This document shows positions 24,047 to 43,239 of a stretch of 64,000 nt of DNA, piece after piece; within the stretch, counting starts at the first letter, position 1, and each line of letters starts with the position of its first letter. The notes below the pieces were generated by a model, which did no database searches, had not been told where the DNA came from, and was given only the letters and a program-made list of their open reading frames with translations. The translations under genes and the position numbers were made by a program. This stretch comes from Ignavibacteria bacterium (lineage in GTDB: Bacteria > Bacteroidota > Ignavibacteria > Kapaibacteriales > Kapaibacteriaceae). The stretch is taken from NCBI GenBank assembly GCA_015709655.1, contig CP054181.1, positions 1,484,207 through 1,548,206 on the forward strand. The letters are read 5' to 3'.

Positions 24047-24094
24047 AGTTTCGAGCCGCTAAATGCTATCATCGTTAACGAAGGGGGCTGCGTT

Positions 24095-25927: not shown

Positions 25928-26293
25928 TCAGGAGTTGTATAGTTGGGAGGCGTCAATAAACACGAAGTACTCCTTGATTTTGCCGTTATCCATGTGTAGG
26001 ACGCTGCATACGGGAACCCGGAGTGTAGTGTCGTTGTGGCGGGTATAGGTAACGTATCCATGGGCGGCTATTACGTTGCCGGTATCGGCCGTTACAAGAA
26101 TATCGTGCTTCAGACTTTTTATGGAAGCAAAAAAACCGGCAACGGCATCGCGTACGGCCTGGATGCCGGAAACAGGATCTGCATTGCCAAATCGAAACGT
26201 TCCGTCGGACGTGAAATATGATGCAAAAGCATCAGCATCGCTTGCATCAACGGCCGCGAACAACTCCTTAAGATCGGGATTCTTCATAGACAA
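25928..26293 (-). CDS. SnoaL/NTF2-like domain protein
   Basis: A 121-residue protein of the cone-shaped NTF2-like fold: LKELFAAVDASDADAFASYFTSDGTFRFGN, VRDAVAGFFASIKSLKHDI, and RVPVCSVLHMDNGKIKEYFVFID are typical SnoaL-like elements. Members range from polyketide cyclases to small binding proteins, so no reaction can be named. It diverges from the broken mgtE; 192 bases lie between them with nothing more than the mgtE promoter box. Start at 26293 or two codons later. Confidence 0.85.
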   Translation of the reverse strand: MSMKNPDLKELFAAVDASDADAFASYFTSDGTFRFGNADPVSGIQAVRDAVAGFFASIKSLKHDILVTADTGNVIAAHGYVTYTRHNDTTLRVPVCSVLHMDNGKIKEYFVFIDASQLYNS

Positions 26294-26485
26294 CTCAAAC
26301 TATTCATGGTGCAGTACATACAATCGTACACCAAAATACAGAATAACAGCGGCTGAACGGTATCCGGTTCATCAATTACACTCTGCCTGGAGTAAGTCAG
26401 AACCGGAATAATACCTCACTGTAGGGCAGCAACACCGGAGAATTTTATATGGGATCTAGGTAAAAAGCTGCCGTAGGTTTGTTCT

Positions 26486-27169
26486 ATGAGAAAAGCGCTG
26501 ATTTCTCCGGAAATTGAAGAATTAATTGTCGCCCGTGAATTCGCTACTGTAAGGGAAGTTGTCGTTGACTGGGATGCGCCTTCGATAGCTGAGATTGTAG
26601 AAGATCTTAGTCCTGACTCGTGTGCCATACTGCTTGGAGTTCTACCAAAAAAACTTGCTTCGGAAACATTTGCCTACTGCGATTCGATTCGACAACACGA
26701 ACTGTTGCGCAGTCTGGCTACTGAACAGGTGGCAGCAATGCTCAACGAGATGGCCGCCGATGACCGCAGGGAACTGTTTCAAGGGTTACCGGCAAATGTT
26801 GTTGCGGAACTAGTGAATCAACTTAGTGTAGAAGAGCGAGCCGTTGCGATACGCCTGCTAAACTACCCTGAAGACTCTGTGGGTCGGCTAATGACACCGG
26901 ACTATGTTCAGGTAAAAAAACATTGGGCGGTCCAGGAAGCTCTGGAGCATATTCGCCAGTTTGCGAAGGACTCAGAAAAACTCACTTCGCTGATAGGCGC
27001 TGTATTGTGGGCTACGTTAACAGGCTCGATGCTTCCAATTTTGTTGAAACGGCTTGGATGAGATTCGGCTACGTCTTCAGCACCGTTCGTGGCAACCTTG
27101 GTTGACGTTACCGGGATTATCATCTACTTTTCGGTAGCCTCGCTGTTTCTTCATGGTATGCTCCTTTAA
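26486..27169 (+). pseudogene. mgtE: Magnesium transporter MgtE, internally deleted and frameshifted
   Basis: The first ~160 codons encode the MgtE N-terminal superhelical domain (MAADDRRELFQGLPANVVAELV, LNYPEDSVGRLMTPDY) and only the start of the CBS region (VQEALEHIRQFAKDSEKL). The frame then jumps to the last membrane helices (VLWATLTGSMLPILLKRLG), skipping most of the CBS pair and the first membrane helices. A frameshift at about 27058 moves the final [20 protein letters not shown] helix into another frame that runs to the TAA at 27167–27169. A TAGGTTTG box (26474–26481) four bases from the ATG may be its promoter. It adjoins the left end of the integrated element. Confidence 0.85.
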
Positions 27170-27285
27170 ACCAGATCGCCAGTAGAGGAGCTTAATCTGT
27201 TACTAGACCGCAGCAGTGCTGGTAAGAAGTACAGTTGAAATTGGCTAGAATGTATGCCCGCAAAGGAGCAAACGGATGAAAATAA

Positions 27286-27315
27286 CAATGCCTCGCCTGG
27301 ACAGACGGGGCATTG
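27286..27315 (-). terminator. Displaced original terminator of tRNA-Glu
   Basis: CAATGCCTCG and CGGGGCATTG pair as a ten-base stem with one mismatch, and on the minus strand a T-rich TTATTTT follows. It lies just outside the left core repeat. Before integration this would have been directly downstream of the tRNA-Glu 3' end. Confidence 0.6.
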
Positions 27316-27320
27316 TGTAC

Positions 27321-27334
27321 GTACACCGTACGGG
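27321..27334. other. Left attachment core (attL) of the integrative element
   Basis: GTACACCGTACGGG is identical to 55151–55164, the 3' end of tRNA-Glu (acceptor and T-arm). Identity stops on both sides after 14 bases. The chromosome to the left holds a tRNA-type terminator, as expected for the displaced end of the target. Confidence 0.75.
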
Positions 27335-27768: not shown

Positions 27769-28113
27769 ATGTCAGATAAGAAGTCGCAGGTTGTCCAGAT
27801 CGAGGGAGTCTCCATCCATGAACTCCTCGACATGCTCAACGCGAGAGAACTTCAGAACCGCCGAGAGTACCGGGAATATGAAGAATCCCGAGCCATCAGG
27901 TACAATCAAACCGAAAGGGACTCATCCTCCGCGAGTCTTGAGAGGCTGATTACCGATCAGCAACTTGCAGAGATGACTGGGCTCACCCGGCAGACATTGA
28001 GGAAACACCGGCAGGAAGGGAAACTCCGCAACGTCAGGAATATCGAACCCAAGATTCGATACACACAGGAAGCCGTGGACGAATACCTGAGGGGACGGGA
28101 TGAGGACCAATAG
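27769..28113 (+). CDS. HTH (MerR/excisionase-type) DNA-binding protein
   Basis: A 114-residue protein with a charged N-terminal half (possible coiled coil, LNARELQNRREYREYEESR) and a C-terminal winged-helix module: ITDQQLAEMTGLTRQTLRKHRQEGKLRN...KIRYTQEAVDEYLRG, the pattern of excisionases and helix-turn-helix_17 proteins. Its last 14 bases overlap the next gene. At the att-proximal end beside repeats it may serve as excisionase or copy-number control; this is by position. Confidence 0.75.
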   Translation: MSDKKSQVVQIEGVSIHELLDMLNARELQNRREYREYEESRAIRYNQTERDSSSASLERLITDQQLAEMTGLTRQTLRKHRQEGKLRNVRNIEPKIRYTQEAVDEYLRGRDEDQ

Positions 28114-29284
28114 CGTTCGGAGGTCCTCATCCATAAGACTCGACTCATTACTAGTGGGTCAGACTTTTTCTAAAAGTTCTTCTCTTACAGGTGAGGACCC
28201 TCACAGAATCAGGACAGGAATTCTCGAAGGGGTAGGAATTCATGGTTTGAAGGCACACTCCTTCGTCTGTCCATCCGCTCCGAGGCTGGAGTCCATCCTT
28301 CAGAGCATGGAGAGATGCGGGAATGCCTACAATACTCCTGCCCCTTGCTCTGTAGAAGCAGACTGCGCACCTGTGTTTAAGGGAAGGCTGGACAACCTCC
28401 TGTTCACTCGTTACCACAGTGGCAGGACCTCCGTTTCTGGTTGTCTGGACGCGGTTATCCTCGATGCGAATCTCCGGTTGAGGAAGCCTGAGGACATCGA
28501 TTGTGCTCTTGATGCTTTTGCCAAGAGATGGGGCTTCGACGTTCGCCATTGGCAAGTCTCGGGCGTGGAGGTAGCTCTCCAGTGGTGGTCTTCCATGATC
28601 GGAAGGCAGATGGCCGAGTACTGGGGTTCCTACCGAGGACAGTCCGATCCTGTCCCTTACAACTGGAGGTCAAGGCAACCCGATCTTGACGGTACCTACT
28701 ACTACAAGGTCCCCCATGCTGATGGGAGAGTGGTAGACCCTGCCGATCCTCTGAAGCGTTACGACGTAACGAAGAAGTACTTGGAAAAGCACGGTATCCA
28801 CATCCTTGGTCCGGAACCCGACCTCAGGCTCTTCCGTTTCGAAAGGACTCTCAAGTCTGACCTGTGGATTCCTGACTCTTTCGGTAGAGCACCGAAGGAC
28901 GGGAGCGAGAAAGTCCGCCTGACGGTTGGGGACCTGACCAAGCCCGAGGTGTATTCCTACCTGATCTCCCGGTTGGTTTCCACCTTCTTCGGTATCGACA
29001 AGAACAAGGTATCTCCGAAGCCTGTGGAAGAAGTGAAGGGCAACCGCACCAAGGTTCTTGCGGAGCGTCCCTTGGCCCTGGCCATTCTGGGGAATTTCGG
29101 AGAGGCAGGGAAACGTCCAGAGAGGAGAGCGAAGGACCGAACGTATAGGCAGCTACTTCAAAGACGCCATGGAGACATCCTCGATCCTCAGTCATGCTGG
29201 GGGCATCTCCACCGTCTTCTTATGGACCACACCGTGCAGGACGTTCCTCACGTCTGGGAGGAATTCTTCAGACGTTGGTCTTGA
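28100..29284 (+). CDS. Putative replication initiator-like protein of the element
   Basis: A 394-residue protein, probably starting downstream of 28100 or overlapping the HTH gene by 14 bases. It has stretches reminiscent of rolling-circle G2P/Rep proteins: a strand SGCLDAVILDANLRL, a motif TYYYKVPHADGR with LKRYDVTKKYLEKHG followed by LRLFRFERTLKSDLW, similar in shape to the YDK...RFE element of phage replication initiators. I cannot point to a clear HUH histidine pair, so this is a weak assignment based on these motifs and on the neighbouring repeats. There is no relaxase-type partner. Confidence 0.4.
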   Translation: MRTNSVRRSSSIRLDSLLVGQTFSKSSSLTGEDPHRIRTGILEGVGIHGLKAHSFVCPSAPRLESILQSMERCGNAYNTPAPCSVEADCAPVFKGRLDNLLFTRYHSGRTSVSGCLDAVILDANLRLRKPEDIDCALDAFAKRWGFDVRHWQVSGVEVALQWWSSMIGRQMAEYWGSYRGQSDPVPYNWRSRQPDLDGTYYYKVPHADGRVVDPADPLKRYDVTKKYLEKHGIHILGPEPDLRLFRFERTLKSDLWIPDSFGRAPKDGSEKVRLTVGDLTKPEVYSYLISRLVSTFFGIDKNKVSPKPVEEVKGNRTKVLAERPLALAILGNFGEAGKRPERRAKDRTYRQLLQRRHGDILDPQSCWGHLHRLLMDHTVQDVPHVWEEFFRRWS

Positions 29285-29408: not shown

Positions 29409-30044
29409 TTAGGACTGTTTCCCATGATCTGTGAGGAGCCTTCGAAGCTCGTTTGAGAGCGGCATTTCAGGTCGTCGGTCGAGATGGGAGTGATACCGTG
29501 AGGAGTCAGGTCCCCAATCGAAGTATAGTCCTGCATCGGGGCTATCCATCTCACGCCCTATTTCTTGGGAAAGCTCCAGCGATTGGGTGAACAGAAGTAT
29601 TGGCTTCCGACTTCCAACGAGATGAGCAAATACTTCAAGCCGATAGGTTCCCGCCGTGAACCGGAAGCCATGGTCATCCCGGGGAGCAAGGAAGTGGTGG
29701 TTTACCCCCAAGCCTGTCTCTCCCACAAATAGACCGCTCCCGCGTACCAGTTTGTCATCCCCGTACACCCACACGTTGAAGGTCTGCCGACTCTCATTCC
29801 GGGAAAGGGTGATGTACATGTTCTGGATGACTCATCCCTTCTTAGAGGTCGAATACAGCAAGGTTCGGAGAAACACCTTTGGAGATGCTTCTGATGAAGC
29901 GGAGCCTCGGCCGTCGGGACCGAAGAAAATGACCGTTGGCTGTGTCATCTTCACCGTTCCTCTGCGGAAAAGAGTCAGCCAAGCTGTCGTTCCTGAGATG
30001 AACAGGGAGAGCAGCGAAATCGTAAGTATGATTGGGTCAGGCAT
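29409..30044 (-). pseudogene. Membrane-anchored defence-island protein split by an in-frame TGA
   Basis: Codons 1–70 (30044–29835) encode a membrane segment (IILTISLLSLFISGTTAWLTLF) then RRGTVKMTQPTVIFFGPDG and PKVFLRTLLYSTSKKG. TGA at 29834–29832 interrupts; the same frame continues VIQNMYITLSRNESRQTFNVW...YFDWGPDSSRYH to 29409. The two parts join without frameshift, as in the intact ~200-residue family I recall from defence neighbourhoods (KxGxVIxNMxxxLxRxESxQTFNxWVYGD). A single base change (CGA to TGA would be enough) explains it. Function of the family unknown. The downstream half could restart at the ATG at 29819. Confidence 0.75.
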
Positions 30045-30061
30045 ACCGTCTTGCAGTTTAA

Positions 30062-30850
30062 TTAGAAGGGTACGTCGTCTAACGAGGATTGTTTATTTCG
30101 CGTCAGACGGCGTCGTTCAACACTGCGGATGAACTTGAAAGTCGCGAGTACGGTAGAGAGGATGTACCAACCCTCATCGACATTAACAACCGGGTTCCCG
30201 TGTGCCATGCTGTGGTCATTCCTAACGCTGGAAAAGGCATCCATCGTTGACAATGTATTCCTCAATATTCGTTCTCCCATTACCGTTTCGATGGTTCCGT
30301 CAGCCCTGAGGTCTCGGACATAGGCAGAGCACAGGTACTGGAGGGTGGCATCCCTGTCGTAGGGTAGGTTGTGGGCGTCGGAGAGGTTTCTGAAGTACAA
30401 TACAGTGAAGGTGTGCATTCGGTCTACGGCTTCATCTGCCCTTGACTGTTGTAAGAGGTGGCGAATCGCCTGAGCATGTCTCTCCAAGAGATCATCTGTA
30501 AAGTCTACCTCCAGTGCATCAAGATCGGGGATGTGAGGTTGCGACTCCAGACGAACTATGATTTCAATAGCACGATCGCGTCTCTCTTGGCTGAGACCAT
30601 CCACCATGTCAAGTAAACCCCTAAGTGCTCTACCAACTAGGTGGTCGGGTGCAACATTCCAGAAGCCCCGTAATCGATTGGCCTTTGACCCGGAAGCATA
30701 GTTGTACTCTGGAGCGTAAATGTTTACACCTACCCCAAGTCGGAAGAATTCCTCAAAGTTGTTGTTACTGAAATTGAGAACGTATCCACCGCCCATTTGA
30801 AGCAACCTTTCAAAGAACTGTCGTTCCGGAAATGTCAGAGGCATGTGCAT
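30062..30850 (-). CDS. AbiJ-like abortive infection protein
   Basis: The 262-residue protein matches the AbiJ pattern: N-terminal LTFPERQFFERLLQMGGGYVLNFSNNNFEEFFRLGVGVNIY...GSKANRLRGFW and a C-terminal Abi_C-like domain with SVRNDHSMAHGN (Arg...His-Gly, HEPN-like). AbiJ proteins stop phage infection by killing or arresting the host; the trigger for this one is unknown. It follows the 280-residue membrane protein by 42 bases and precedes the split gene by 17, all on the same strand. Confidence 0.8.
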   Translation of the reverse strand: MHMPLTFPERQFFERLLQMGGGYVLNFSNNNFEEFFRLGVGVNIYAPEYNYASGSKANRLRGFWNVAPDHLVGRALRGLLDMVDGLSQERRDRAIEIIVRLESQPHIPDLDALEVDFTDDLLERHAQAIRHLLQQSRADEAVDRMHTFTVLYFRNLSDAHNLPYDRDATLQYLCSAYVRDLRADGTIETVMGERILRNTLSTMDAFSSVRNDHSMAHGNPVVNVDEGWYILSTVLATFKFIRSVERRRLTRNKQSSLDDVPF

Positions 30851-30892
30851 TTCGTACGTTACGTACGCGCGTTAGAGGATTACAAATACAAG

Positions 30893-31735
30893 CTATGATA
30901 AGGATCGGGGCTCTTTCGACATCCTTTCTGTGGACTTGGCTATCGATTCCAAGGACTTAGATATTGCTGTGAGGCGATCAAGTTCAAAATTCTGTTCAAC
31001 GAATGAGTTGTTGAACATTCGCAGGTCAATGCTATGAACTTCAGAGTACTGCTGACCTGCATATGCGTATGTAGCAGTAAGCGTAAATACAAGGGGTATC
31101 AGAGGGTCGTCAGGCGAAGAGCCTTTGAGTTTGTCCCCGGTGGCTAGTGGAAACAGGAGCTTCATACCATTGGAGAAAGCTGGGATAGTATTGTGAAACG
31201 AGAATGCCCGATGAATGCCCGGGATTCTCTCTGATTCTGTGACACCCATGATATGGAACTCTTTGTCCAAGGTCATAGTGAGGTTTAGAGCGGGTGACTT
31301 TCCGGTATTCTGGATTTCGAGTATAAGTAGAGTATCCTGTTGAACTCGGATTCGAACACTGATGTACGGTCGAGAGATCGCAGCGGTCTGTGCAGTTAAC
31401 GCATCTGCTTGCCTGTGTAAAGCGGATACCTGTTCGGAAAGAGCCTGTTCGGACTTCTCTTGAGCCTTTGCCTGTCGTTGAAGCTCCTTGCGAGTATCTG
31501 CCAGTTCCTGTCGCTGCAAAGCAAGCTCCCTGCTCTGGAGGGAAACCGTAGCAACGACACCCCAGAAAGCCAAGGCCGCTACAAGTGTTCCTGCGGCTTC
31601 AAAGACTGTATCGGGTGGGTACCATACCCAGCCCCGAAGGTACTGGTCAATGAGGACGACTACCAGAGCAAGGAAGAGGATAGTAAGACACCCGCGAACA
31701 AGCAAGGGAGGGAGTTGGGAATCCTCTTTCAACAT
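30893..31735 (-). CDS. Membrane-anchored coiled-coil protein of unknown function
   Basis: 280 residues. Two membrane segments (about residues 10–32 and 40–65) are followed by a heptad-rich coiled coil (LALQRQELADTRKELQRQAKAQEKSEQALSEQVSALHRQADAL, split here as seen at residues ~67–112) and a strand-rich cytoplasmic domain with LLILEIQNTGKSPALNLT. No named family recognised. It overlaps the nuclease gene's stop by seven bases, so they are likely co-translated and may act together. Confidence 0.7.
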   Translation of the reverse strand: MLKEDSQLPPLLVRGCLTILFLALVVVLIDQYLRGWVWYPPDTVFEAAGTLVAALAFWGVVATVSLQSRELALQRQELADTRKELQRQAKAQEKSEQALSEQVSALHRQADALTAQTAAISRPYISVRIRVQQDTLLILEIQNTGKSPALNLTMTLDKEFHIMGVTESERIPGIHRAFSFHNTIPAFSNGMKLLFPLATGDKLKGSSPDDPLIPLVFTLTATYAYAGQQYSEVHSIDLRMFNNSFVEQNFELDRLTAISKSLESIAKSTERMSKEPRSLS

Positions 31736-32295
31736 AGAATTCTCCCCACAAGCGTAGTAACCGCGTCTCGAATGAGCTTTTGTTCGGTTTCCCCCTCAGC
31801 CCATATACCAGCAGCGGAAGCAAGTTCTACGTTATCAAAGGAACAGGATTTTTTGGTGTCAGCGACAGAAGCCAACCACCCGCTTACCACGATGCGTGAG
31901 TTTGAACGCACTCTAGGAAGATGGTCAGTTCCATCCGCGTTCTTCAACGAATTCCGCACATGAGCTACGAGTTCACCGAGTTCCGCCTGAGCATTCTGAA
32001 AGCGATACTGTCCGGATGCGGAGGTCTTGACCTGTACGAGAGCAATGCTGGTAACCCTATAGCCATGGCAGGTGTGTGAACCGATGGCCCACACATCTCC
32101 TTGGGTCCTGCTGTAGTAACTCGCCGTCGAGTACCCTTCCTTGTTGAAGGTCTTGATAACGAACTGTTCGCCTCGTGTTCCCCGTTCGTAGGAAACGAGA
32201 TCACCAAGAGTCTGCTGTTTCCTCTGCTCGTAGCTACGCGCTAGAACCTTGACCACCTTGGACCAATCGTTATGCAGGTCGTAGGCCATAACCAC
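31729..32295 (-). CDS. PD-(D/E)XK-type nuclease
   Basis: 188 residues containing an archetypal nuclease core: GTRGEQFVIKTFNKEGY (conserved Glu), then TQGDVWAIG (Asp) and ALVQVKTS (QxK), the E...GD...QVK order found in restriction endonucleases and Holliday-junction-resolvase-like enzymes. No methyltransferase is nearby, so self-DNA discrimination would need another mechanism. It overlaps the membrane coiled-coil gene. The 265 bases upstream (32296–32560) show no gene. Confidence 0.7.
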   Translation of the reverse strand: MVMAYDLHNDWSKVVKVLARSYEQRKQQTLGDLVSYERGTRGEQFVIKTFNKEGYSTASYYSRTQGDVWAIGSHTCHGYRVTSIALVQVKTSASGQYRFQNAQAELGELVAHVRNSLKNADGTDHLPRVRSNSRIVVSGWLASVADTKKSCSFDNVELASAAGIWAEGETEQKLIRDAVTTLVGRILC

Positions 32296-32560
32296 CTCTC
32301 TCTGATAGAAAATTCACTACTGATCACACGAGAAGAAGGAAGTACTCGCGGACCGTTGAGAGTATTGTATACTACAAATATGTGCTTTTCCTTCCCCCAA
32401 ACTGCCCTGTAGGTGATTGGTGGACAACGACTAAGCCCGAAAAAATTCTTACGCGAAAAGTACGAGATTCTTGGCTACTTCGATCCCGGAATCGACGGGT
32501 TCCCTCCAGTGCACTCCAGCGCGTAGGGCCAACGTACGCTTGGTACCTTCCAAGAACTCT

Positions 32561-34345
32561 TCACGCATCGGAAGGCTCTTCTAGAATCGGGAGGCTCAGA
32601 ACTCCGAGACGAAGGCACATATGCCAGAAGGAGTAGAACAATGAGGTTCTCATTTCATCATCAGCAATCAGTCCGTGCATGAGGTTGTTTCTCAGTTTTG
32701 CTCCATGAGGGCTAAGGAAATAGTAGTTCAACTCGAACCACAGTCCATCGTTCAACATCTCCTTCATCATAGGGTCGGACAGCATTGTCTCCATGCTCAA
32801 CTGTATGTCTGTTCTGTCCTGTTGACGACGGATAGTATCGTCTCCTGAAGCTTGTAGCAACCATCGTAGCCAATGTTCAATTTGGGGCACGAGGATATGG
32901 GTGGCTTCACATATCTCTCCCTTGAATCCGAGATACATTCCCTTCGCCCAACTTTCAGTTCTTCCGTGCGGCACCAGCGCAGCCCGCGACATCAGACGAC
33001 GACAGAAGTCAAGGGAAATGTTGTGTTCCTTCTGCAAGACCTCCAGTCCCGGTACGATACATCCTGACGCGGAAATCCCCAGAGTAAGACCAAAATGCCG
33101 GACCGTTTCTGTTTCGATTGCGCGAACGTAGGATTCCGGGTCGTTAACGTTCAGACCATCACGTTTTGCAACCACTCTACCGTCCGCTGAATAGCTCATA
33201 CCACCCATGATGTGTCTCAAAGGATGTTTCTGAACCAGTTCCTCGGCGAATTCACGAGTTGCGTCGACATTCGTTCTGTAGCACATTCTCGCATACTCGA
33301 ACAATGCTGGGTCCAGCGATTGACCTTGAATTCGAGATTCCGTCGTACGAACCATCTCGGCAATATCCATGGGTTCAGAACTGATTGTACCCATTGATCT
33401 TATGACCTCAATCCCGATTGTACCAAGGTCTTTTCTGAGGTCAGCGATCCGGCCTTCGATGTTGTGCTCACGCCGATATGATCTGGGTAGTCCAGTGTAT
33501 TCCGCAAGAGCGGCACGAACAAGGTAGTCACTGACCATTGCCTTGTCACACTGCGTACTTTGTAGCTCTTCTTCTTGAAGAAAGGAGTCTGCAATTCTAT
33601 GGGTGAGTTGGTTCTCTTTCGCGTGCTGTTGCTGTCCACGGTACTGCTCTCTGATAGACTTCCAACACTCCCGTGCAAGAATGAAGTCCTTGCTGTCGAG
33701 GGCCCTATCTCCTAGAACAATCAGTAGGTCGAGTACCTCCTCCCTCTGCTCGACAACCTCCAAGTAACCAGAGAACAACTGGAATAAGTCTAGCTTATCC
33801 GTGACGTTGTCGGTAGAGTCTTCGAGGAATCTGGCCACCAGTTCATCAATCATCCTTCTCCACGCTGTTCGGTCAAAGGCCCGAGCAATCAACAAGGCTC
33901 TTCTCTTGAGTTCAACGGCCTCAAAGCTGTGTCGTATTTCTGTATCCGATATAAATACATACGACTCCATGGCCATCAATGCCAATTCTTTCCTACGTCG
34001 TTGTCGAACCCACAGTGTGTCAGCTACTCTCGCTTTCAGCCAATGATTATCTATCTCCGGTAATAGTACCTCCAACGCTTGAAGTTCTTCCTCAGAGAGG
34101 TCATCGGGAATCATGGTTCTACCGTTCGGACCTGACAGCATCGGTCCAAATGGGTCAGCTAGGGATTCCGTTTTGATGTACATGGTACAAAGGGCGGCCA
34201 AGAGCTTCAGAGAATGATGTTCGTCCTCTGCCCCTGCTTCTTTCCGCCGTTCCGCAAGACTGTCAAAGGCAGATGCAAAGTCGTGGTACGACTCGATCTC
34301 TATGCCATTGATAGCCTCGCGCCATGGGGCTACACGTAAGTCCAT
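32561..34345 (-). CDS. Large DUF4209-like protein with C-terminal HEPN-type motif
   Basis: A 594-residue, mainly helical protein. The C-terminal ~110 residues contain VPQIEHWLRWLLQASGDD and LRNNLMHGL with Arg552-x4-His557, the catalytic RNase motif of HEPN domains; DUF4209-type proteins end this way. The N-terminal part (residues 1–400) is made of helical repeats resembling scaffold or sensor regions. Such proteins recur in defence islands. RNase activity is inferred from the motif. Confidence 0.65.
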   Translation of the reverse strand: MDLRVAPWREAINGIEIESYHDFASAFDSLAERRKEAGAEDEHHSLKLLAALCTMYIKTESLADPFGPMLSGPNGRTMIPDDLSEEELQALEVLLPEIDNHWLKARVADTLWVRQRRRKELALMAMESYVFISDTEIRHSFEAVELKRRALLIARAFDRTAWRRMIDELVARFLEDSTDNVTDKLDLFQLFSGYLEVVEQREEVLDLLIVLGDRALDSKDFILARECWKSIREQYRGQQQHAKENQLTHRIADSFLQEEELQSTQCDKAMVSDYLVRAALAEYTGLPRSYRREHNIEGRIADLRKDLGTIGIEVIRSMGTISSEPMDIAEMVRTTESRIQGQSLDPALFEYARMCYRTNVDATREFAEELVQKHPLRHIMGGMSYSADGRVVAKRDGLNVNDPESYVRAIETETVRHFGLTLGISASGCIVPGLEVLQKEHNISLDFCRRLMSRAALVPHGRTESWAKGMYLGFKGEICEATHILVPQIEHWLRWLLQASGDDTIRRQQDRTDIQLSMETMLSDPMMKEMLNDGLWFELNYYFLSPHGAKLRNNLMHGLIADDEMRTSLFYSFWHMCLRLGVLSLPILEEPSDA

Positions 34346-34419
34346 ACGACCGTTTTCTCAAACGGGATATTTGTTTGGAGATTGCCAGCAAGAAGTGAAC
34401 CTAACGACAATGGTCAGGA

Positions 34420-35223
34420 CTATTGCATCGCACGATCAATTCTTCGGTGGGCGTAGGAAACCATGGCAAACAAATCCAGAGCATCTTCCTCTGACATCTG
34501 CCAAACGATCTGTGGAGCGTGTGCAGTCGGATTCCGGAAGGTACCGAACATACCTTTGAGGAGATTCATGAATCCTTTCTGTTCGCCTACATCGGTCTCG
34601 GAGACAAGATTGTTGATCCGAAGTAGGGGAGAGGTTCCTCCGAACACAGCGTCAATGAGAGACGCTCCGTCGCCCGTCGCTACACTTCGTACTCGAATCT
34701 TCTCCGCAACACTCTTGGTTGCCTCCAGAACAGCGTGGAAATGATTGTTGTGGTTCAGGAGAACACTACAATACCTGATTGCATCTTGGTGTGTACCTCT
34801 GGCTTCAAGCTTGGTCCGTAGTCTCTCAACCCTTTCTTCAGCCTCGGTCAAAGTCTTGGCAGCAACACCCCTACCGAACTGACCGTCTTCGCGAAATTTC
34901 AATCCGTGGAAAGCAAGAATCTGGTTCAGCTTTTCACGACGTTCCTCGAACAGTTCCTTCTTTCCCACGTACCGGGCAGGTGCCATTCCCTTGCTAATGA
35001 AACTGAGAACACAGTTTCCTTTCTGATCCCGGTATTGCATGCCTACAAGAGCATTGTAGAGCCACTTCCATTTCGTCATCGTAGGATTAGGGTCTGGAAT
35101 ATGTGTGTCTTGGAGAAGGTGCCCGATTTCGCTACCAGAAAGCCCTTCTGAAGTATCGGCAATGATCTTGCAGATGGATTCCAGTTCGGCTGCCGTAAAG
35201 GCATGGGTATCGTTGTTGCTCAT
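34420..35223 (-). CDS. TIGR02391 (Ymh-like) family protein with HEPN motif
   Basis: 267 residues from the ATG at 35223 (a longer frame exists but reads as an unlikely leader). The C-terminal domain is the TIGR02391 family: LVSETDVGEQKGFMNLLKGMFGTFRNPTAHAP, in which Arg-Asn-Pro-Thr-Ala-His is an Rx4-6H HEPN motif, followed by ALDLFAMVSYAHRRIDRA. The N-terminal region looks like a winged-helix domain (SGSEIGHLLQDT). This family is frequent in restriction and defence loci. It is separated by 101 bases from the AbiTii gene upstream. Confidence 0.75.
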   Translation of the reverse strand: MSNNDTHAFTAAELESICKIIADTSEGLSGSEIGHLLQDTHIPDPNPTMTKWKWLYNALVGMQYRDQKGNCVLSFISKGMAPARYVGKKELFEERREKLNQILAFHGLKFREDGQFGRGVAAKTLTEAEERVERLRTKLEARGTHQDAIRYCSVLLNHNNHFHAVLEATKSVAEKIRVRSVATGDGASLIDAVFGGTSPLLRINNLVSETDVGEQKGFMNLLKGMFGTFRNPTAHAPQIVWQMSEEDALDLFAMVSYAHRRIDRAMQ

Positions 35224-35324
35224 AGGTGGGTACGGGTTAGGATGACATGAGTAAGACGGTATCAGCCGGAAGCTTGCCGCGAAAGGAATAACAAAGAGCG
35301 ATTCCAATCGCACCAGTATCCAAC

Positions 35325-36212
35325 TCAACCAAGGCCGTAGTATTTAGCGATCAAGGATGCTAGAAGCGATCCTGCCGTGTTCGCAGCAATACTCCACGTA
35401 CCACTGGCCGATAACATCAGCATCCTGCCGATCCAACCTTGAACGCGAGGTCCTAACTCCGTTGATGCTTGCGGTGAAGGTGGGTCAGCTTGGATGGCTA
35501 CGCGTAGGTTTTCAATATCGTGCTCACTGACATTCTGCTCTCGAAGGCAAGTGGCCAACGCATCGAAACGTTGGACATTCAATGTATTCGTTTGGCTGAT
35601 CGTGCCATGGTTTGTACCGAACACGCCCTGTGCATTTTGGATATGGTAGTTGTTTGTAACCGGAGCTTGTAGTTCGGGGTATGGTTCTGTCTTCATGTGC
35701 GTATTCCTTTCGACATCAAGAGCCCAGCTAAGTACACGGGAGCGCAACTGTTCCAGTAGATGCTTGATCTGGAGTGAGCGAATCATTCGCGCGAGACGTA
35801 CTGGCTCGCCAGCGACATACATGCCTTCTCTTCGTAGTACGCGATTTACCTCATCCGGAACTGGGAAAACTAGGTCTTGATCCTTGTTGCTACTTTCAGA
35901 CAATGCAATTGCCGAAGTGGATACGTTAACTGATCTCAAACTGTGATTGAAGTTGGGATCGTCGAAGGTCAATACCGCTGGAGCCCAACCGAAAGGGCTA
36001 TTATCACCAACAAGTTCAGCATAGACTCTACGATATTCGGGAAGATCGGATACATCGAATCCATCGGGATAACCCTTCAACTCGTATGAAATCCACATGT
36101 TGCTTTCTTCGGTCTTAAGCCCCATTGCTAGGGTCCAAGCCATCCTGAGAAGCTCAGGGAGTGGCGTGGTATCTGAAGTTGCTGCTTCCACCAATCGTTG
36201 GATTTTACTCAT
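35325..36212 (-). CDS. AbiTii domain protein, copy 2
   Basis: 295 residues. The N-terminal ~110 residues match AbiTii (LVEAATSDTTPLPELLRMAW...MWISYELKGYPDG...PEYRRVYAELVGD). A middle motif, NYHIQNAQGVFGTNHGTISQTN, and a C-terminal helical domain ending ASGTWSIAANTAGSLLASLI follow. It is a paralogue of the gene at 36282–37166, about half identical by eye over the full length. AbiTii is an abortive-infection-linked domain; its mode of action is not known to me. It follows copy 1 after 69 bases. Confidence 0.82.
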   Translation of the reverse strand: MSKIQRLVEAATSDTTPLPELLRMAWTLAMGLKTEESNMWISYELKGYPDGFDVSDLPEYRRVYAELVGDNSPFGWAPAVLTFDDPNFNHSLRSVNVSTSAIALSESSNKDQDLVFPVPDEVNRVLRREGMYVAGEPVRLARMIRSLQIKHLLEQLRSRVLSWALDVERNTHMKTEPYPELQAPVTNNYHIQNAQGVFGTNHGTISQTNTLNVQRFDALATCLREQNVSEHDIENLRVAIQADPPSPQASTELGPRVQGWIGRMLMLSASGTWSIAANTAGSLLASLIAKYYGLG

Positions 36213-36281
36213 GAGGATTGTACCCCTTCATACCGAACTCTTCCATGCCATTTTTTTGGAATCGAAAATTTTAGCTGCCAC

Positions 36282-37166
36282 TTACGGACGAGTCATATGC
36301 TGCATTATCAGAGATGCTAGTAGTGACCCGACAGCATTCGTTGCCACGTTCCACGTACCTTCAGCAGCGTACTTGACCATTCGATCAATCCAACCCAGCA
36401 CTTGCGGTCCTAAATCGGTTGATGCAGATTGAAGAGGTGGGTCGGATTGGATAGCTTCTCGAAGATTTTCAATTTCATCCTCAGGGACGTCGTACTCTCG
36501 GAGAGAAGTAGCCAAGGTATTGAAGCGTTGCGAACTCAAGGTGTTCGTTTGATTAATCGTACCGTAATTTGTACCAAAGATACCTTGCGCCTGTTGTATA
36601 TGGTAGTGATGGTTGGTGGCTGGAGAGGGGTGATCAGTAGGTGCCATAGTTTGCTTCGCAATACGTTTTTCAACATCAACAGACCAAGCAAGTACCCTTA
36701 CACGTATCTGCTCAAGAAGCGCAGGCATATGCCTTGATGAGAATCTCCGAGCCAAGTTGACAGGTAACGACGTTCCGAAATCGCCTTTGCGCCTAGCTTG
36801 CCCCGGAATTGGGAATATGAGGTCCATGTTTTTGATGCTCAAATCCTGAAGATGAATTACGGACGTTGGGAGACATAATAAGGCCGGTTGTTCACGCAAA
36901 CCGTTGATCAAAGAGGTTGGCGAAATTGGTTTCCAGCCCCACTTGTCACTCCCTTCAACAAGTTCAACATAAACGATTCGGTATGGCGGATAGTCAGGAG
37001 CCGTAAGTTCAGATGGATACCCACGAAATTCGTACTCAATCCATTGGTCTTCCAAGTTCGAGCGAGATGCAATAACCCATGCTTTTCGAAGCAACTCTGG
37101 CAGTAAGATGGAATCTGATGTTGCAGCATCCTGAAGGTCGTGTATCTGACGTATCGTAGCGTCCAT
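36282..37166 (-). CDS. AbiTii domain protein, copy 1
   Basis: 294 residues from the ATG at 37166, chosen because it aligns with the start of copy 2; a start 45 bases upstream is possible. N-terminal AbiTii (LQDAATSDSILLPELLRKAW...WIEYEFRGYPSE), the same central HYHIQQAQGIFGTNYGTINQTN motif, and the same C-terminal tail (AEGTWNVATNAVGSLLASLI). The tandem pair is a clear gene duplication with divergence. Confidence 0.82.
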   Translation of the reverse strand: MDATIRQIHDLQDAATSDSILLPELLRKAWVIASRSNLEDQWIEYEFRGYPSELTAPDYPPYRIVYVELVEGSDKWGWKPISPTSLINGLREQPALLCLPTSVIHLQDLSIKNMDLIFPIPGQARRKGDFGTSLPVNLARRFSSRHMPALLEQIRVRVLAWSVDVEKRIAKQTMAPTDHPSPATNHHYHIQQAQGIFGTNYGTINQTNTLSSQRFNTLATSLREYDVPEDEIENLREAIQSDPPLQSASTDLGPQVLGWIDRMVKYAAEGTWNVATNAVGSLLASLIMQHMTRP

Positions 37167-37279
37167 GGGGCTTCCGATTGTGTGTGTTCTACCAATTGCA
37201 ACTTCGCACACCTTACTGGAGCAGATTCAGAGTTGGTATATCCGTTGACAACATCACCTTCTCGTGCTCAGATCAGTAC

Positions 37280-37846
37280 CTACTCGACCTCTTGTTCTGG
37301 TTTGATCCGTGAGCGGTCGAAACCTTGCTGAAATTCTTCGAGAAGGCCCTTTGAAATTGTGACTTCGTGTTGATTACCATCAGAAAACCCAGCCCAGACA
37401 TACACCTTCTTTGGACGTAATTCCAATGTTTCCATCTGATCGCCAAACCATTGATTCCCTCGGGTGTTGACGTACCAAGTGGCATCTTCTCCAGAAGAAA
37501 GAACACAGGGTAGAGGGGACTGCTGAACCTCACGGTCAGGGTCAATCTTCTGCCAATGCAAGACTTTGCTACGTCTGGGTTCAAAACGCCAACCAACGCT
37601 TGTGACCTTGACCACTCGATCGCCTGTATTCACGATGTGGATTCTAATAAACCTTGAAGTTCCGGGTAAGAGATGGGCGACATCAGCCCACAACTTCCCT
37701 CGGAACTTGGTGGCACGTCTCGTTAACCAAAGGCTGTAGCCAACCGCGGCGAGTGTGCCGAAGGCAGCAACTACCGTTCCTATTACGTTCACCACGGACC
37801 AACAGTCCCGCGATAACCCAAAGATGTATGGGTCTGGTTGTTCCAT
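37280..37846 (-). CDS. Small membrane-anchored protein of unknown function
   Basis: 188 residues with one membrane segment (WSVVNVIGTVVAAFGTLAAVGYSLWL, about residues 16–41) and a strand-rich remainder (RFIRIHIVNTGDRVVKVTSVGWRFEPR). The layout matches the other membrane-anchored proteins of this cluster. It starts 20 bases after the OLD nuclease gene and probably belongs to the same unit. No family recognised. Confidence 0.65.
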   Translation of the reverse strand: MEQPDPYIFGLSRDCWSVVNVIGTVVAAFGTLAAVGYSLWLTRRATKFRGKLWADVAHLLPGTSRFIRIHIVNTGDRVVKVTSVGWRFEPRRSKVLHWQKIDPDREVQQSPLPCVLSSGEDATWYVNTRGNQWFGDQMETLELRPKKVYVWAGFSDGNQHEVTISKGLLEEFQQGFDRSRIKPEQEVE

Positions 37847-37866
37847 GCGTGAGACTACAAGGACGT

Positions 37867-39825
37867 TTAGAGTACTTCGCCAATCCGTTGGAAGAGCTTC
37901 TCAAAGGAAGCGAGTGTCTCCGGTCCTATGGCGTCGATCGTGAGCAACGGCAGTGTAGCTTGTGCCACTCGGTAATGGTTGAATCCGCCATCCTTTAAGA
38001 GAACGATCTTCTTGTCCTTGAGCCACCGATTGATCCGCTCAACAATTCGGGGATGCTCTCCCAATTCTTCCAAGGTCAGGGTGTTGCCGCCAAGCTTATC
38101 GGCATACGTGTTGTTGAAGGCTTGTATGTAGATAGACGTTGGAAGTAGGTCTTCCACATCAGCTTCTTGCGAAGTTGGTTCACAGAACATGGAAAAATCA
38201 AGAACGCGTTTCCGTTCAATCAGTTTCTGCCGAACGAGGTCCTCAAGTTTCTGAGGTGGGGTAGCCGCACGATCATGAAGCACAACGAGCTTCAACTTGT
38301 TCGACCCAAGAAGGGCTACGAACGTGGCAAGTTTATCGAGTCCACCGACAGGTACGAGAATAGCATCACCAAGGCCCTGTTTATTACTTGCTTCGAGAAG
38401 GGTATTAAGGTGGTTCAAAATGATCAAGTCGGCCGGACCTTCAACAAGAACATTCTTCTTTGCGATAAACAGGTTCTGAGCGATGGAGTATCCCAAAGCT
38501 GCCTGCAAAGGGAAGATGCTCTCATCGGAAGAACCCGCTAGTTCCTTGCTAACCACCGTTCCATCTTTGACACGATCCTCTACCACACGTACTTCATCAA
38601 GCCGTGAAGAATCTACCATGAAAGGGGAGTGCGTTGTATAGATGATCTGGTGTTCGGTTGATAGCTCACGGATGTAGGCCAGAAAATCCGCCTGAGCCAA
38701 GGCATGAAGGTTCAGCCCCGGTTCATCGAGTAGGAGCATCAGAGACTTCGTTGTTCCTGCCCTTGACTGAATGGAGTCGAACCACACCAAAAAGCTGAAG
38801 AACCATATGAAACCCTTGCTCCGCTGACTGAAGGGTACCGTTACGCCATGCCGACGACTTTTGATCCGAATGTAGAGATTCATGCCAGTGTTGTACGGTG
38901 CCGAGTCCTTTGCGTCAGCCTTCACATCAAACTCTACATCCAACTCTTGGTTCTGTCTCCAGAACTCGAAAATCTTCCGTGTGATACTCAGACCAATCGC
39001 TTCAAGTTTGGCCTTGGCAGTCTCATAACCTTCTTCGCCCATCAATTCGTGAAGAGTCGTACCTGCAAGTTCAAGCAATCCTTGAGCTGTCCGATCGGCA
39101 TCGGTGAGTTTCTTCTCAGACTGACGTTGGAGCAGAGACGGCAAGTTGATCTTACCCTCAAGGAGATTGTAGTCATCGAAATACAGGAACTTCGGCAGTG
39201 CAGGAGAGATGTATGCACTCCAGATGTATCCTTCGACTAGTCCCCATCCCGAGCCCTTAATAGCACGCTGCTGCCACTGCGATGCAAATACAGTCAGTGT
39301 ACAGTCTGCTGCAAGATTCAAACCCTCGATCTCAGCTACGACATCCTCAAGGGAGGTTGCTCCCTCGAATACTTCGTCCTTGTGTTCCAGATCACCGAGT
39401 GAACCATGTAGAGCACTGAGAACAGAGGCCGAGTCGATTCTGAACCCAATTTTGCTTTTGTTGTCAATTGTTGTCATCCACGTGAATGTGGTGCCACTGA
39501 GAACAACATCAGAACCGGCGAACACCTCCGAATTAATTTTCGTTGCTAGTTCTTCTTCGATACGGAAGGTCAACCGTACGACTTGTTGAGGGTTCCCGGC
39601 TTCATGCTGAGGACGATAGCGTACGAGGTCCTTACGAGGATAATCCGCAACGTAGTCGAATTGGGCGGAGTCAAGAGGTAAAGCTTTGTGTAGAGCTTCA
39701 AGGAAGGCAGTCTTTCCGGACTCATTCTTACCAACGAGTACAGTAACCTCGCCCCCAATTGGCACAGGGGTTGAATCCTCTATGGACTTATACTTCGAAA
39801 CCTGCGCTTCGATCAGTGTTATCAT
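37867..39825 (-). CDS. OLD-family ATPase/TOPRIM nuclease
   Basis: 652 residues. An ABC-type ATPase with Walker A VGKNESGKT (residues 31–39), Walker B LMLLLDEPGLNLH (about 362–374) and TTHSPF (397–402) is followed by a TOPRIM region: NVLVEGPADLIIL (458–470) and VVLHDRAAT around 514, then DVEDLLP. The TOPRIM Asp pair is altered, with only one Asp in LVVLHDRA, so metal chemistry may differ. OLD nucleases defend against phages alone or with a helicase (as GajA/GajB); no UvrD-type helicase is next to it here. It is the first gene of the long minus-strand defence run. Confidence 0.88.
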   Translation of the reverse strand: MITLIEAQVSKYKSIEDSTPVPIGGEVTVLVGKNESGKTAFLEALHKALPLDSAQFDYVADYPRKDLVRYRPQHEAGNPQQVVRLTFRIEEELATKINSEVFAGSDVVLSGTTFTWMTTIDNKSKIGFRIDSASVLSALHGSLGDLEHKDEVFEGATSLEDVVAEIEGLNLAADCTLTVFASQWQQRAIKGSGWGLVEGYIWSAYISPALPKFLYFDDYNLLEGKINLPSLLQRQSEKKLTDADRTAQGLLELAGTTLHELMGEEGYETAKAKLEAIGLSITRKIFEFWRQNQELDVEFDVKADAKDSAPYNTGMNLYIRIKSRRHGVTVPFSQRSKGFIWFFSFLVWFDSIQSRAGTTKSLMLLLDEPGLNLHALAQADFLAYIRELSTEHQIIYTTHSPFMVDSSRLDEVRVVEDRVKDGTVVSKELAGSSDESIFPLQAALGYSIAQNLFIAKKNVLVEGPADLIILNHLNTLLEASNKQGLGDAILVPVGGLDKLATFVALLGSNKLKLVVLHDRAATPPQKLEDLVRQKLIERKRVLDFSMFCEPTSQEADVEDLLPTSIYIQAFNNTYADKLGGNTLTLEELGEHPRIVERINRWLKDKKIVLLKDGGFNHYRVAQATLPLLTIDAIGPETLASFEKLFQRIGEVL

Positions 39826-39907: not shown

Positions 39908-40282
39908 CTATGGCTGGACAGTCAGACTTTCTCGTAAGAGCTTCAGCCGTACGATAGCATCATCCAGAATCTGGGTTGTACTACCTTTCCCATCAACTGG
40001 CGCAAACATCTCCCCCTTCCCGGTCACCAACCAATGAAGGTTCACGTCGTAGGCGGTGGCAAGCTTCACTAGGGTCTCGACGAGTAGTCCACGTTCGCCC
40101 TTCATGGTCCTCGATGCCCAGTCGTTGGACCGGCCCATCGCTGCCGCGAAGTCGGTCTGCCGGACACCTTTCGTCTCCAGCAGTGCCAGCAGCCGGTCAA
40201 GTACGTCCGGAGGTATGCCCTCGGTCTTCTGCGGTTCTACTTTCCCTTTCGTAGAAGCAGATTTCGTCTTTGTCGATTTCAT
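39908..40282 (-). CDS. XRE (Cro/cI-type) helix-turn-helix regulator
   Basis: 124 residues with a Lys-rich N-terminus and a Cro/cI fold: LLALLETKGVRQTDFAAAMGRSNDWASRTMKGERGLLVETLVKLATAYDVNLHWLVTGKG. Such proteins repress their own and neighbouring promoters. It diverges from the 102-residue plus-strand gene across a 77-base region with two nested inverted repeats, and sits upstream of the OLD-led defence run, which it may control. Confidence 0.85.
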   Translation of the reverse strand: MKSTKTKSASTKGKVEPQKTEGIPPDVLDRLLALLETKGVRQTDFAAAMGRSNDWASRTMKGERGLLVETLVKLATAYDVNLHWLVTGKGEMFAPVDGKGSTTQILDDAIVRLKLLRESLTVQP

Positions 40283-40306: not shown

Positions 40307-40375
40307 CTTGGTTCCTGCTTTCGTAGGTGGCTGGTACGACAGATAAAGAGCTACCAGCGATGAACAGGAACCAAG
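40307..40375. promoter_or_regulatory. Nested inverted repeats between divergent genes (operator)
   Basis: CTTGGTTCCTG (40307–40317) and its exact complement CAGGAACCAAG (40365–40375) enclose a second pair, GCTGGTA (40330–40336) and TACCAGC (40352–40358). The outer right half lies inside the first codons of the 40360 gene. This two-step symmetry beside the XRE gene looks like a repressor operator. Confidence 0.6.
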
Positions 40376-40668
40376 CAGGAATTATCCGACAACTTAAGGA
40401 CAACTCGGTGCACGACCATCAGGCGACGTTCAGGGACCTGTGTCGCCTCATGGACGACACGGAGTTCAACCGCCCTCCATACAGAGGAATACTCGGGAAG
40501 GTAGCCGAAGAACTTGGTCTTCGTGGGGGCCGTAGATCGGTCTACAAGTCGATCCGGATTTCGAGAACAATCGAGGTCATGGTCAAGGTCGCCGAACATA
40601 TTCGGGAGGCGGAGGCTGAGCGAGAGAAGTCTCTGGACGTATACGCACGTATGAGCAAGGGCCGATAG
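40360..40668 (+). CDS. Small charged protein, unknown function
   Basis: 102 residues from the ATG at 40360 (a GTG at 40327 would add 11). Mostly helical and charged: MNRNQAGIIRQLKDNSVHDHQATFRDLCRLMDDTEF and a helix KVAEELGLRGGRRSVYKSIRISR that could be a helix-turn-helix. The divergent XRE gene and shared operator suggest a regulatory pair. I recognise no family. Confidence 0.6.
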   Translation: MNRNQAGIIRQLKDNSVHDHQATFRDLCRLMDDTEFNRPPYRGILGKVAEELGLRGGRRSVYKSIRISRTIEVMVKVAEHIREAEAEREKSLDVYARMSKGR

Positions 40669-40776
40669 ACAAGCATGTCACTGTACCGGGACGGCGTTCC
40701 CGATCAGGAAAAAATCCACGTACGAACCCGATACACAATCGCTTCGAACAACCTATCAATAACCCAAGGAGGAACC

Positions 40777-41274
40777 GTGAGCAAGGAGACGCAACAGCAA
40801 ACCAAGAAGCCGATCTACAAGAAGTGGTGGCTCTGGGTCGGTGTCATCGTAGTCGTTGGCATCATCGGCAGTCAGACAGGGAAGAAGGGTGGTAATGCTC
40901 CTGTAGCCGAAGGAGAAGCAACCTCATCGGCATCTCCCTCGTCACAGCCTGCCGAGAAACCAGCGGAACCCAAGGCGATCGAGGTCACGGCCAAGGACTA
41001 CTATGACGCCTACGAGTCGAACGAGGTCACGGCCGATGCCAAGTACAAGGGCAAGACCATCGCCGTCACAGGAGAAGTGGACGGGGTGAGCAAGACGTTC
41101 GGAACCGTGAGCGTGAACCTGAAAGCTGATGAGTACATCAAGCAGATCCGGTGCAAGCTCAAGACGGAGTCGGACGCAGCCAGTTTGACCAAGGGTCAGA
41201 CGGTAACCCTCGTCGGGGTCGGAGACGACAAGATGATGTTTCCCGAGGTCGAGGACTGTGTGGTGAGGAAATGA
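40777..41274 (+). CDS. Membrane-anchored OB-fold (tRNA_anti-like) protein
   Basis: 165 residues from the GTG at 40777, which has a strong AAGGAGG site five bases upstream. An N-terminal membrane segment (WWLWVGVIVVVGIIGSQTG), a Ser/Pro/Glu-rich linker, and a domain reading YYDAYESNEVTADAKYKGKTIAVTGEVDGVSK...VTLVGVGDDKMMFPEVEDCVV match the OB-fold tRNA_anti-like family. These are usually cell-surface or periplasmic and of unknown role. A hairpin follows its stop codon. Confidence 0.75.
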   Translation: MSKETQQQTKKPIYKKWWLWVGVIVVVGIIGSQTGKKGGNAPVAEGEATSSASPSSQPAEKPAEPKAIEVTAKDYYDAYESNEVTADAKYKGKTIAVTGEVDGVSKTFGTVSVNLKADEYIKQIRCKLKTESDAASLTKGQTVTLVGVGDDKMMFPEVEDCVVRK

Positions 41275-41613: not shown

Positions 41614-41966
41614 ATGTCTCGTTTGATCGTGTTGATACTGTTCTCCATCCTGAGTTCTGCCTTGGTTCGTGCACAGGCCGTGCCCAGTCCCGGCAATCTC
41701 GTCCTCGCCACTCCTGACGGTACCGGGGGATATGAAAACAAAGACAGTCTATGTCTGGATACATCCGCCAATCCGAAAGAACTCTGTGCCAAGCGGTACT
41801 TCTCCGTCCTCTTTCGCACCGCACCGTTCCACGACAGTGCTGCCGCCGACGCTAACGGCAACTACGACATCACCGATGTTGATGACACACACAACGACTA
41901 TTTCCTCTGGAAACGCCTCGACAGTTTGACGGATGGACTCGTCATCCATACGACGACGACAGAGAC

Positions 41967-41969
41967 GTC
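41967..41969 (+). repeat. 3-bp target-site duplication, left (GTC)
   Basis: GTC here and GTC at 43240–43242 flank the insertion exactly, the duplication length typical of IS3-family elements. Confidence 0.8.
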
Positions 41970-42037
41970 TGGAGTGGTCCTGAAAAAGTGGACACTACGG
42001 GGAAGGTGTAATTTTCCAAAAATCTAAGGAAAGAGCA

Positions 42038-42328
42038 ATGAAACATCCACCTCGCATTTATGATGAAGCATTTAAACGTCGCGCCCTGGAGATGGTAGCT
42101 GCGGGACGTACGCTGGCCTCGGTGGCCCGTGAGCTTGGCATCGACGTCAAGCGACTATCGTACTGGAAGCGTACGCTTGGAGCTGCAGCAGCTGCCGGGC
42201 AGAAGACACCTGACGAGCTTGCCGCCGAAGTACGAGCCTTGCGTAAGCGCGCTGAGCGTGCAGAAATGGAACTGGCCATTTTAAAAAAAGCGATGTCGAT
42301 CTTTGCCGCTCCGCCGGGAAGGGACTGA
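42038..42328 (+). CDS. IS3-family transposase OrfA (DNA-binding)
   Basis: 96 residues with the helix-turn-helix FKRRALEMVAAGRTLASVARELGIDVKRLSYWKR and a leucine-zipper segment LAAEVRALRKRAERAEMELAILKKA, as in OrfA of IS3 elements. An A7 run followed by G (42283–42290), read TTA AAA AAA G in its frame, is a slippery site; a -1 shift there opens into orfB, so an OrfAB fusion can be made. Confidence 0.93.
   Translation: MKHPPRIYDEAFKRRALEMVAAGRTLASVARELGIDVKRLSYWKRTLGAAAAAGQKTPDELAAEVRALRKRAERAEMELAILKKAMSIFAAPPGRD
42283..42290 (+). promoter_or_regulatory. Likely programmed -1 frameshift site of the IS
   Basis: The heptamer A AAA AAA (then G) sits near the end of orfA. In the -1 frame the codons run open from here into the orfB start region, so ribosomes slipping here would make the full transposase. 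This is the standard IS3 arrangement. Confidence 0.75.
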
Positions 42329-42333
42329 AATAC

Positions 42334-43212
42334 ATGTTTATCAACAACCACCGGCACTGTTGGCCGGTGCGCCTGCAGTGCCATGTGCTGCAGGTGAGTG
42401 CCAGCGGCTACTATGCCTGGTTAAAGCGACCTGAACCTCAGCTTAGTGACGATGAGCGCAAGCTGGTGCGTGCCATGCGCGAGATTGATGAGAAGTCCAA
42501 CCATACCTTCGGCAGCCGCCGGATGTACAAGGAACTGCGGCGAGGCAACCTTGTGGCAGGCCGTCACAAAATGCGCCGGCTGATGCGGGAAGACGGCATC
42601 CGTGTCAAGCGCACGCCCAGGCGTGCGTTGGTGCAAACTACCGACTCGCAACATCAGCACCCGGTGGCCGACAATCGGCTCAATCGCAACTTTACCGTCA
42701 CGAAACCGAACACCGTCTGGGCTGCCGACATCACCTATGTACAGACCAACGCTGGCTATGTGTACTTGGCGGTGGTGATGGATTTGTTCTCGCGTCGCAT
42801 CATTGGCTGGCATCTGTCAGAGACGATCACGCAACAGCTCACCATCACGGCACTCTGGAAGGCCTGGAAGAACCGTTCTTATGCCACCGGCATGCTCATT
42901 CATAGTGATCGCGGTTCGCAGTATGCTGCGGCAGGCTATCGCCAGTTTCTGACTGACTACTGTAAAGCAACGCAGAGCATGAGCCGCAAGGGAAACTGCT
43001 GGGACAACGCACCAGTAGAATCCTTTTTTGCCACGCTCAAGACCGAAGAATTCAACGACATCAACTTCGTCGATCTCGAGCACCTGAAGCGTCAGGCAGC
43101 ACACTACATCGAGAACATTTATAATCGCAGACGACTGCATTCAACACTTGGATATACAACCCCCGTTGACTTTGAAAACAACTACTTTCGTAACCAAAAA
43201 CACCTACCCTAA
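42334..43212 (+). CDS. IS3-family transposase OrfB (DDE catalytic)
   Basis: 292 residues with a helical HTH_21 region (NHTFGSRRMYKELRR) and the retroviral-type integrase core: first Asp in WAADITYV, second in IHSDRGSQYAAA, Glu in NAPVESFFATLK, and the IENIYNRRRLHSTLGYTTPV C-terminus of IS3-type transposases. The ATG at 42334 lies five bases after the orfA stop codon; expression is probably mainly by frameshifting from orfA. Confidence 0.95.
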   Translation: MFINNHRHCWPVRLQCHVLQVSASGYYAWLKRPEPQLSDDERKLVRAMREIDEKSNHTFGSRRMYKELRRGNLVAGRHKMRRLMREDGIRVKRTPRRALVQTTDSQHQHPVADNRLNRNFTVTKPNTVWAADITYVQTNAGYVYLAVVMDLFSRRIIGWHLSETITQQLTITALWKAWKNRSYATGMLIHSDRGSQYAAAGYRQFLTDYCKATQSMSRKGNCWDNAPVESFFATLKTEEFNDINFVDLEHLKRQAAHYIENIYNRRRLHSTLGYTTPVDFENNYFRNQKHLP

Positions 43213-43239
43213 TGTGTCCATTTTTATGGGACCACTCCA

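Follow-up and report, generated by a model that had tools for sequence, protein, structure and literature searches.

The stretch of DNA analysed here (the window, 64,000 nucleotides of the Ignavibacteria bacterium contig CP054181.1) carries on its minus strand, between 29409 and 39825, eleven open reading frames that make up ten genes, the last of which is split by an in-frame stop. A first-pass annotation had described this stretch as a ten-gene run mixing known defence families. Every reading frame was found where it had been placed, and searches of Pfam, PADLOC and NCBIfam bore out the names OLD, AbiTii (two copies), TIGR02391/Ymh, DUF4209 and Abi_C, with family matches far beyond chance. 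Together the genes form a new combination of known kinds of parts, most of them known anti-phage genes. Read from the OLD side, the gaps are 20 bp (OLD to a gene for a 188-residue membrane protein), 69 bp (between the AbiTii genes), about 101 bp (AbiTii to Ymh) and 74 bp (Ymh to DUF4209). After a gap of 265 bp comes a putative nuclease gene that overlaps by 7 bp the gene for a 280-residue membrane protein, which is followed at 42 bp by Abi_C and then, at 17 bp, by the split gene. The annotation had several neighbours overlapping or lying close together; the 7 bp overlap is real, but TIGR02391 probably does not overlap AbiTii, its most likely start codon being ATG 35223, some 100 bp past the second AbiTii gene. 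In the translations the R-x4-6-H motif of HEPN proteins is intact three times: RNPTAH in Ymh, RNNLMH in the DUF4209 protein and RNDHSMAH in Abi_C. A promoter scan gave a result no better than that from shuffles.

The clustering of these genes is explained by three features that the annotation had missed: an integrase, a tRNA gene and a probable attachment site. The tyrosine recombinase (integrase) gene (53550–55121, minus strand; PF00589, 9e-7) abuts a tRNA-Glu(ttc) gene on the same strand (55149–55223), the predicted integration target, whose 3' end (55151–55164) would form the right attachment site. A 14-bp direct repeat of this 3' end, GTACACCGTACGGG, is the candidate left attachment site at 27321–27334; it adjoins a terminator-like hairpin and its only other copy is that at 55151–55164. 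When random 38-base stretches of the window were drawn, a match of 14 bp or more was obtained in about 0.5% of draws (empirical P ~0.005), and a check of 480 kb of the genome led to rejection of the idea that the site is a dispersed repeat. Just inside the left site, on the plus strand, lie an HTH_17/excisionase-like regulator (27769–28113; HTH_17 2e-9, phrog_66 excisionase 8e-10) and a gene for a 394-residue protein of no family (28100–29284), possibly a replication initiator as judged by eye only, which had no match in Pfam, PHROGs, PADLOC or the PDB. The insert is absent from a relative of the same genus, G003: the genes flanking it in the window (8412–9311 and 55396–56013) are about 1 kb apart there, as against about 46 kb here, with the tRNA between them. 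Two further genomes, G002 and G005, have distant, different integrases at the same tRNA; from these and the empty G003, tRNA-Glu emerges as a recurrent integration site. A comparison for an empty site from the mgtE side was uninformative because the context of mgtE varies among relatives.

The OLD gene (37867–39825, minus strand) encodes an ABC ATPase with a TOPRIM domain, as indicated by profile matches (AAA_15 6.5e-19; OLD-like_TOPRIM 2.1e-6; PADLOC Old 4e-25) and by an alignment in which Walker A and B, the TOPRIM glutamate and an A-D-x-E-D motif are conserved in most members. The glutamate and one aspartate of the TOPRIM acidic set (E, DxD) are kept, the second aspartate being missing throughout the subfamily. 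Full-length homologues (31–37%) were found on plasmids from Actinomycetota, Bacillota, Pseudomonadota and one halophilic archaeon. The 188-residue neighbour was absent beside all eight full-length homologues inspected (three phyla and the archaeon), whose neighbours differ each time, and likewise beside a homologue from the same order. As the neighbours vary and none is like the 188-residue gene, OLD is placed in a widespread stand-alone subfamily; no GajB helicase or retron neighbour is present in the window, and the homologues stand alone too. It is not a Gabija (Class 2) OLD, as the run contains no gene for a UvrD-like GajB helicase. With Class 1 OLDs (P2 Old and the Thermus scotoductus OLD, PDB 6p74, the latter being the best solved relative) it shares the presence of ABC ATPase and TOPRIM in a single gene, and most homologous loci are single-gene; unlike the usual Class 1 enzyme, its subfamily keeps one acidic residue of the TOPRIM DxD. 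According to a review, Class 1 OLDs do not occur near other defence genes (PMC10568477), whereas the OLD in the window lies among them. It bears on a question raised in that review, namely whether stand-alone OLDs defend against phages unaided. The adjacent 188-residue protein (37280–37846, minus strand) has one N-terminal transmembrane (TM) segment, as judged from hydropathy, and is an orphan, with no credible relative in 395 genomes of the phylum, plasmids or viral contigs; weak matches to it fell within other genes or spurious frames and were rejected.

The two AbiTii genes (36282–37166, PF18864 9.7e-17; 35325–36212, PF18864 2.4e-22; both minus strand) are a tandem duplicate, 48% identical, in which the conserved glutamate E44 is invariant; the first most likely starts at ATG 37166. 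A structure model built from the two sequences was too poor for use (mean predicted local distance difference test score, pLDDT, 41). Next to them is the TIGR02391/Ymh HEPN gene (34420–35223, minus strand), of the PD-Lambda-3_B type (Hypoth_Ymh 2e-34; TIGR02391 1e-31; PADLOC PD-Lambda-3_B 3e-85 over 260 of 270 positions), with homologues in 103 plasmid records. PD-Lambda-3 is a two-gene system that acts by abortive infection (PMC13190303). The window Ymh shares its component B at full length, but component A was undetected: the neighbouring genes do not match it, and a search of the whole genome, made without a positive control, was negative. AbiTii stands upstream instead. Fusions of AbiTii and Ymh have been published in other bacteria (PMC3710099); the window resembles the lactococcal AbiTii/AbiTii-HEPN arrangement in having the AbiTii domain and an HEPN partner encoded next door, but here the genes are separate, not fused, and AbiTii is duplicated in tandem. 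These fusions, together with the adjacency here, make AbiTii with the Ymh HEPN ribonuclease (RNase) the best-supported functional link within the run.

The following gene (32561–34345, minus strand) encodes a DUF7380-DUF4209 HEPN protein (DUF7380 2.6e-39; DUF4209 1.8e-10) that corresponds to the PADLOC candidate PDC-S39 (1e-136), the match being full length with no difference seen, though the PDC-S39 family is itself only a candidate. Its homologues occur across phyla and in an archaeon, beside differing neighbours; one from the same genus (47%) is broken. On the same-genus contig L049 (217–2156 and 2266–3609) the broken homologue lies beside a transposase gene, and the adjacent genes resemble by eye a three-Cys-motif partner and a DUF5131 protein. 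The third HEPN-type gene (30062–30850, minus strand) encodes an Abi_C, or abortive infection family, protein with an R-x6-H motif; the match (4e-5) is just at the family cut-off. Full-length Abi_C homologues (about 37%) were found on plasmids, with neighbours that differ from those here.

Between these two HEPN genes lie the putative nuclease gene (31729–32295) and that for the 280-residue protein (30893–31735), both on the minus strand. The former reading frame, also of 188 residues, had been called a PD-(D/E)XK nuclease. The reading frame itself stands, but the label depends on an E..GD..QVK motif read by eye, and no profile library searched (Pfam, PADLOC, NCBIfam, PHROGs) gave a family match; the structure model (pLDDT 33) was too poor for use. 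No relative of this orphan was found in 123 genomes of the order, plasmids, viral contigs or the contigs of 84,980 species. The genome-wide peptide scan also missed relatives of Ymh, though Ymh has many; it finds only very close relatives, so that its negative result for the nuclease is a weak one. The 280-residue protein has two N-terminal TM segments, as judged from hydropathy, then a coiled coil and a beta-rich C-terminal part; its relatives are weak and partial, matching either through the membrane-coiled-coil part or through the beta-rich part only, and none adjoins such a nuclease.

At the end of the run is a gene for a membrane-anchored protein (29409–30044, minus strand) that is interrupted at codon 71. 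The first-pass annotation was right to call it a membrane protein gene; rather than being split in two parts, it is one frame with an in-frame TGA, and it is probably a pseudogene. A frameshift was rejected, the frame being the same on either side of the TGA. In Yersinia ruckeri a relative, on plasmids, reads through both halves (second half 52%). Recoding of the TGA was considered since a Qingshengfaniella relative (L106, 4842–5369) is interrupted too; decay is likelier than recoding because the stop in that relative is a TAG at another position.

We consider it very probable that the run is defence cargo of an integrative element at tRNA-Glu, extending from about 27321 to 55164, and that it consists of independent modules rather than being one ten-gene machine. 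The modules would be a stand-alone OLD, the AbiTii pair with the Ymh HEPN RNase, the PDC-S39 HEPN protein and the Abi_C HEPN protein, together with two or three orphan or decaying membrane or nuclease genes and, nearer the integrase, SIR2-like and Schlafen-like genes. Their independence is suggested by the fact that OLD stands alone and that Ymh and DUF4209 homologues have varying partners. A single ten-gene system was rejected, as no neighbour pair was conserved in the genomes and plasmids searched, and by the same check, as far as it was run, the earlier suggestion that subsets of the run are multi-gene systems fails. Each module would most likely sense some phage-caused disturbance and then act late, the three HEPN proteins cutting RNA in abortive infection and OLD cutting DNA; in the AbiTii-Ymh module AbiTii would sense or scaffold, and Ymh would cut RNA once triggered. 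As in tRNA-integrated defence islands elsewhere, there are an integrase at a tRNA, variable cargo and a regulator group near the cargo; what differs is the combination of genes. The locus would add a defence island that is well delimited and probably mobile, and it is a warning that a ten-gene run on one strand need not be one system. Some points weigh against this interpretation. The ten genes are co-directional with short gaps, so that a single transcript and some co-operation are possible. Pair conservation was assessed in plasmids and, within a single phylum, in at most 395 genomes. Lastly, the DNA absent from G003 starts at about 9.3 kb and not at 27.3 kb, which could reflect either an older insertion alongside or an element larger than the 14-bp repeat implies. 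The 18 kb or so in question (9312–27320), also missing in G003, carry genes for a nosZ-type nitrous oxide reductase, NosL and a hemerythrin.

Some of the genes might nevertheless act together. It is quite conceivable, if short of an even chance, that AbiTii and Ymh, perhaps with DUF4209, make up a single abortive-infection system of two or three genes, a PD-Lambda-3 variant with AbiTii in place of component A; AbiTii would then be the sensor and Ymh the RNase, and the pair would fit within the cargo as one module. The end-to-end match of Ymh to PD-Lambda-3_B, the placement of AbiTii immediately before it in the same orientation, the published fusions (PMC3710099) and the abortive infection described for PD-Lambda-3 (PMC13190303) all agree with this, and in G223 AbiTii and a shorter Ymh-type gene are 2 kb apart. 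On the other hand, AbiTii adjoins none of the nine other full-length Ymh homologues, Ymh is not beside four of the five AbiTii homologues of the phylum that were examined with wide flanks, and the search of the genome for component A, which lacked a positive control, came back empty. We think it unlikely that the putative nuclease, the 280-residue protein and Abi_C are a three-gene membrane-anchored system, in which a membrane platform would position a DNA nuclease with the HEPN protein as back-up. These genes overlap or lie close together after the 265 bp gap, and nucleases anchored in the membrane are known to cut phage DNA as it enters, SNIPE being one (PMC13190303); but the nuclease has no relative anywhere searched, Abi_C homologues have other neighbours and relatives of the 280-residue gene lack such a nuclease.

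Similarly improbable is a membrane-tethered OLD system formed by OLD and its 188-residue neighbour. The gap between them is only 20 bp, and in G027 a different OLD gene overlaps a gene encoding TM, coiled-coil and beta-domain parts, which gives the order at least one further pairing of an OLD with a membrane protein. Full-length homologues of the window OLD have no such neighbour, and the 188-residue protein shows no detectable relationship to the G027 membrane protein (E 0.26). The G027 locus itself (L010, 602–3209, on G027:C18), where the OLD gene shares a few bases with the gene of a relative of the 280-residue protein, is a possible membrane-tethered OLD pair, a single case and the sole hint of such pairing. 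We would also give little credence to the idea that the run is decaying, inactive cargo. One of its genes carries an in-frame stop, the same-genus PDC-S39 homologue is broken and an internal deletion affects the mgtE copy lying just beyond; yet every other frame in the run is open, and the HEPN, Walker A/B and TOPRIM residues are intact. In the mgtE copy (26486–27123) the middle has been lost, with the CBS and most of the TM part; a second copy (61%) with a long open frame lies at G000:C1:668159.

In nine other loci a full-length or nearly full-length Ymh gene lies within 250 bp downstream of a gene that has the same orientation and differs from locus to locus. The upstream genes encode a DRT8 reverse transcriptase (2e-130), PDC-S54 (4e-149), a Schlafen-AlbA_2 protein (AlbA_2/RecG-C), a Cthe_2314 HEPN protein, an HSDR_N/AAA protein, a nucleoid-associated NA37 protein, a C92 peptidase and two unnamed proteins. 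Full-length PD-Lambda-3_B-type genes, encoding both domains of the protein, directly downstream of unrelated defence genes are found at L123 (9237–11683), L122 (4584–6862), L125 (109–2239), L014 and L017. Possibly, though this is doubtful, Ymh/PD-Lambda-3_B is a portable HEPN effector, a swappable killing arm that many systems share and couple each to its own sensor. With nine loci and no background count this is a lead rather than a result; if true, several named defence systems would have one HEPN effector in common, and classifying them would become simpler.

Upstream of the run is an XRE/CI-type regulator gene (39908–40282, minus strand; phrog_2328 3e-14), with a homologue in G005. Divergent from it are a gene for a 113-residue protein (40327–40668, plus strand), for which a similar gene was recognised by eye in the same position in G005 (L049), and a gene for a membrane tRNA_anti-like (OB), superinfection-exclusion-like protein (40675–41274, plus strand; PF12869 3e-17, phrog_8545 8e-27), with a DNA match in G005. 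There the same group, XRE, similar small divergent gene and tRNA_anti-like gene, stands beside different defence cargo, its neighbours being a gene for a large methyltransferase-like protein and the broken PDC-S39 homologue next to the transposase gene. Because it recurs beside other cargo, the group is probably part of the element backbone. The XRE gene, which had been proposed to control the run, is real; it looks like backbone and not like a dedicated regulator, and control of the run by it is possible.

Towards the integrase, on the plus strand, are genes for a SIR2_2-like protein (50190–51443) and a Schlafen/AlbA_2 protein (52009–53289), both further probable cargo. The element also contains an IS3-type transposase pair (42038–43212), accompanied by imperfect inverted repeats of 46 bp (41964–42009 and 43200–43245). 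The DNA that separates the SIR2-like gene from the defence run also holds, at 43148–50005, genes for a 1656-residue protein that ends in a Por secretion tail and for a 623-residue BNR-repeat protein, which are odd for a defence island.

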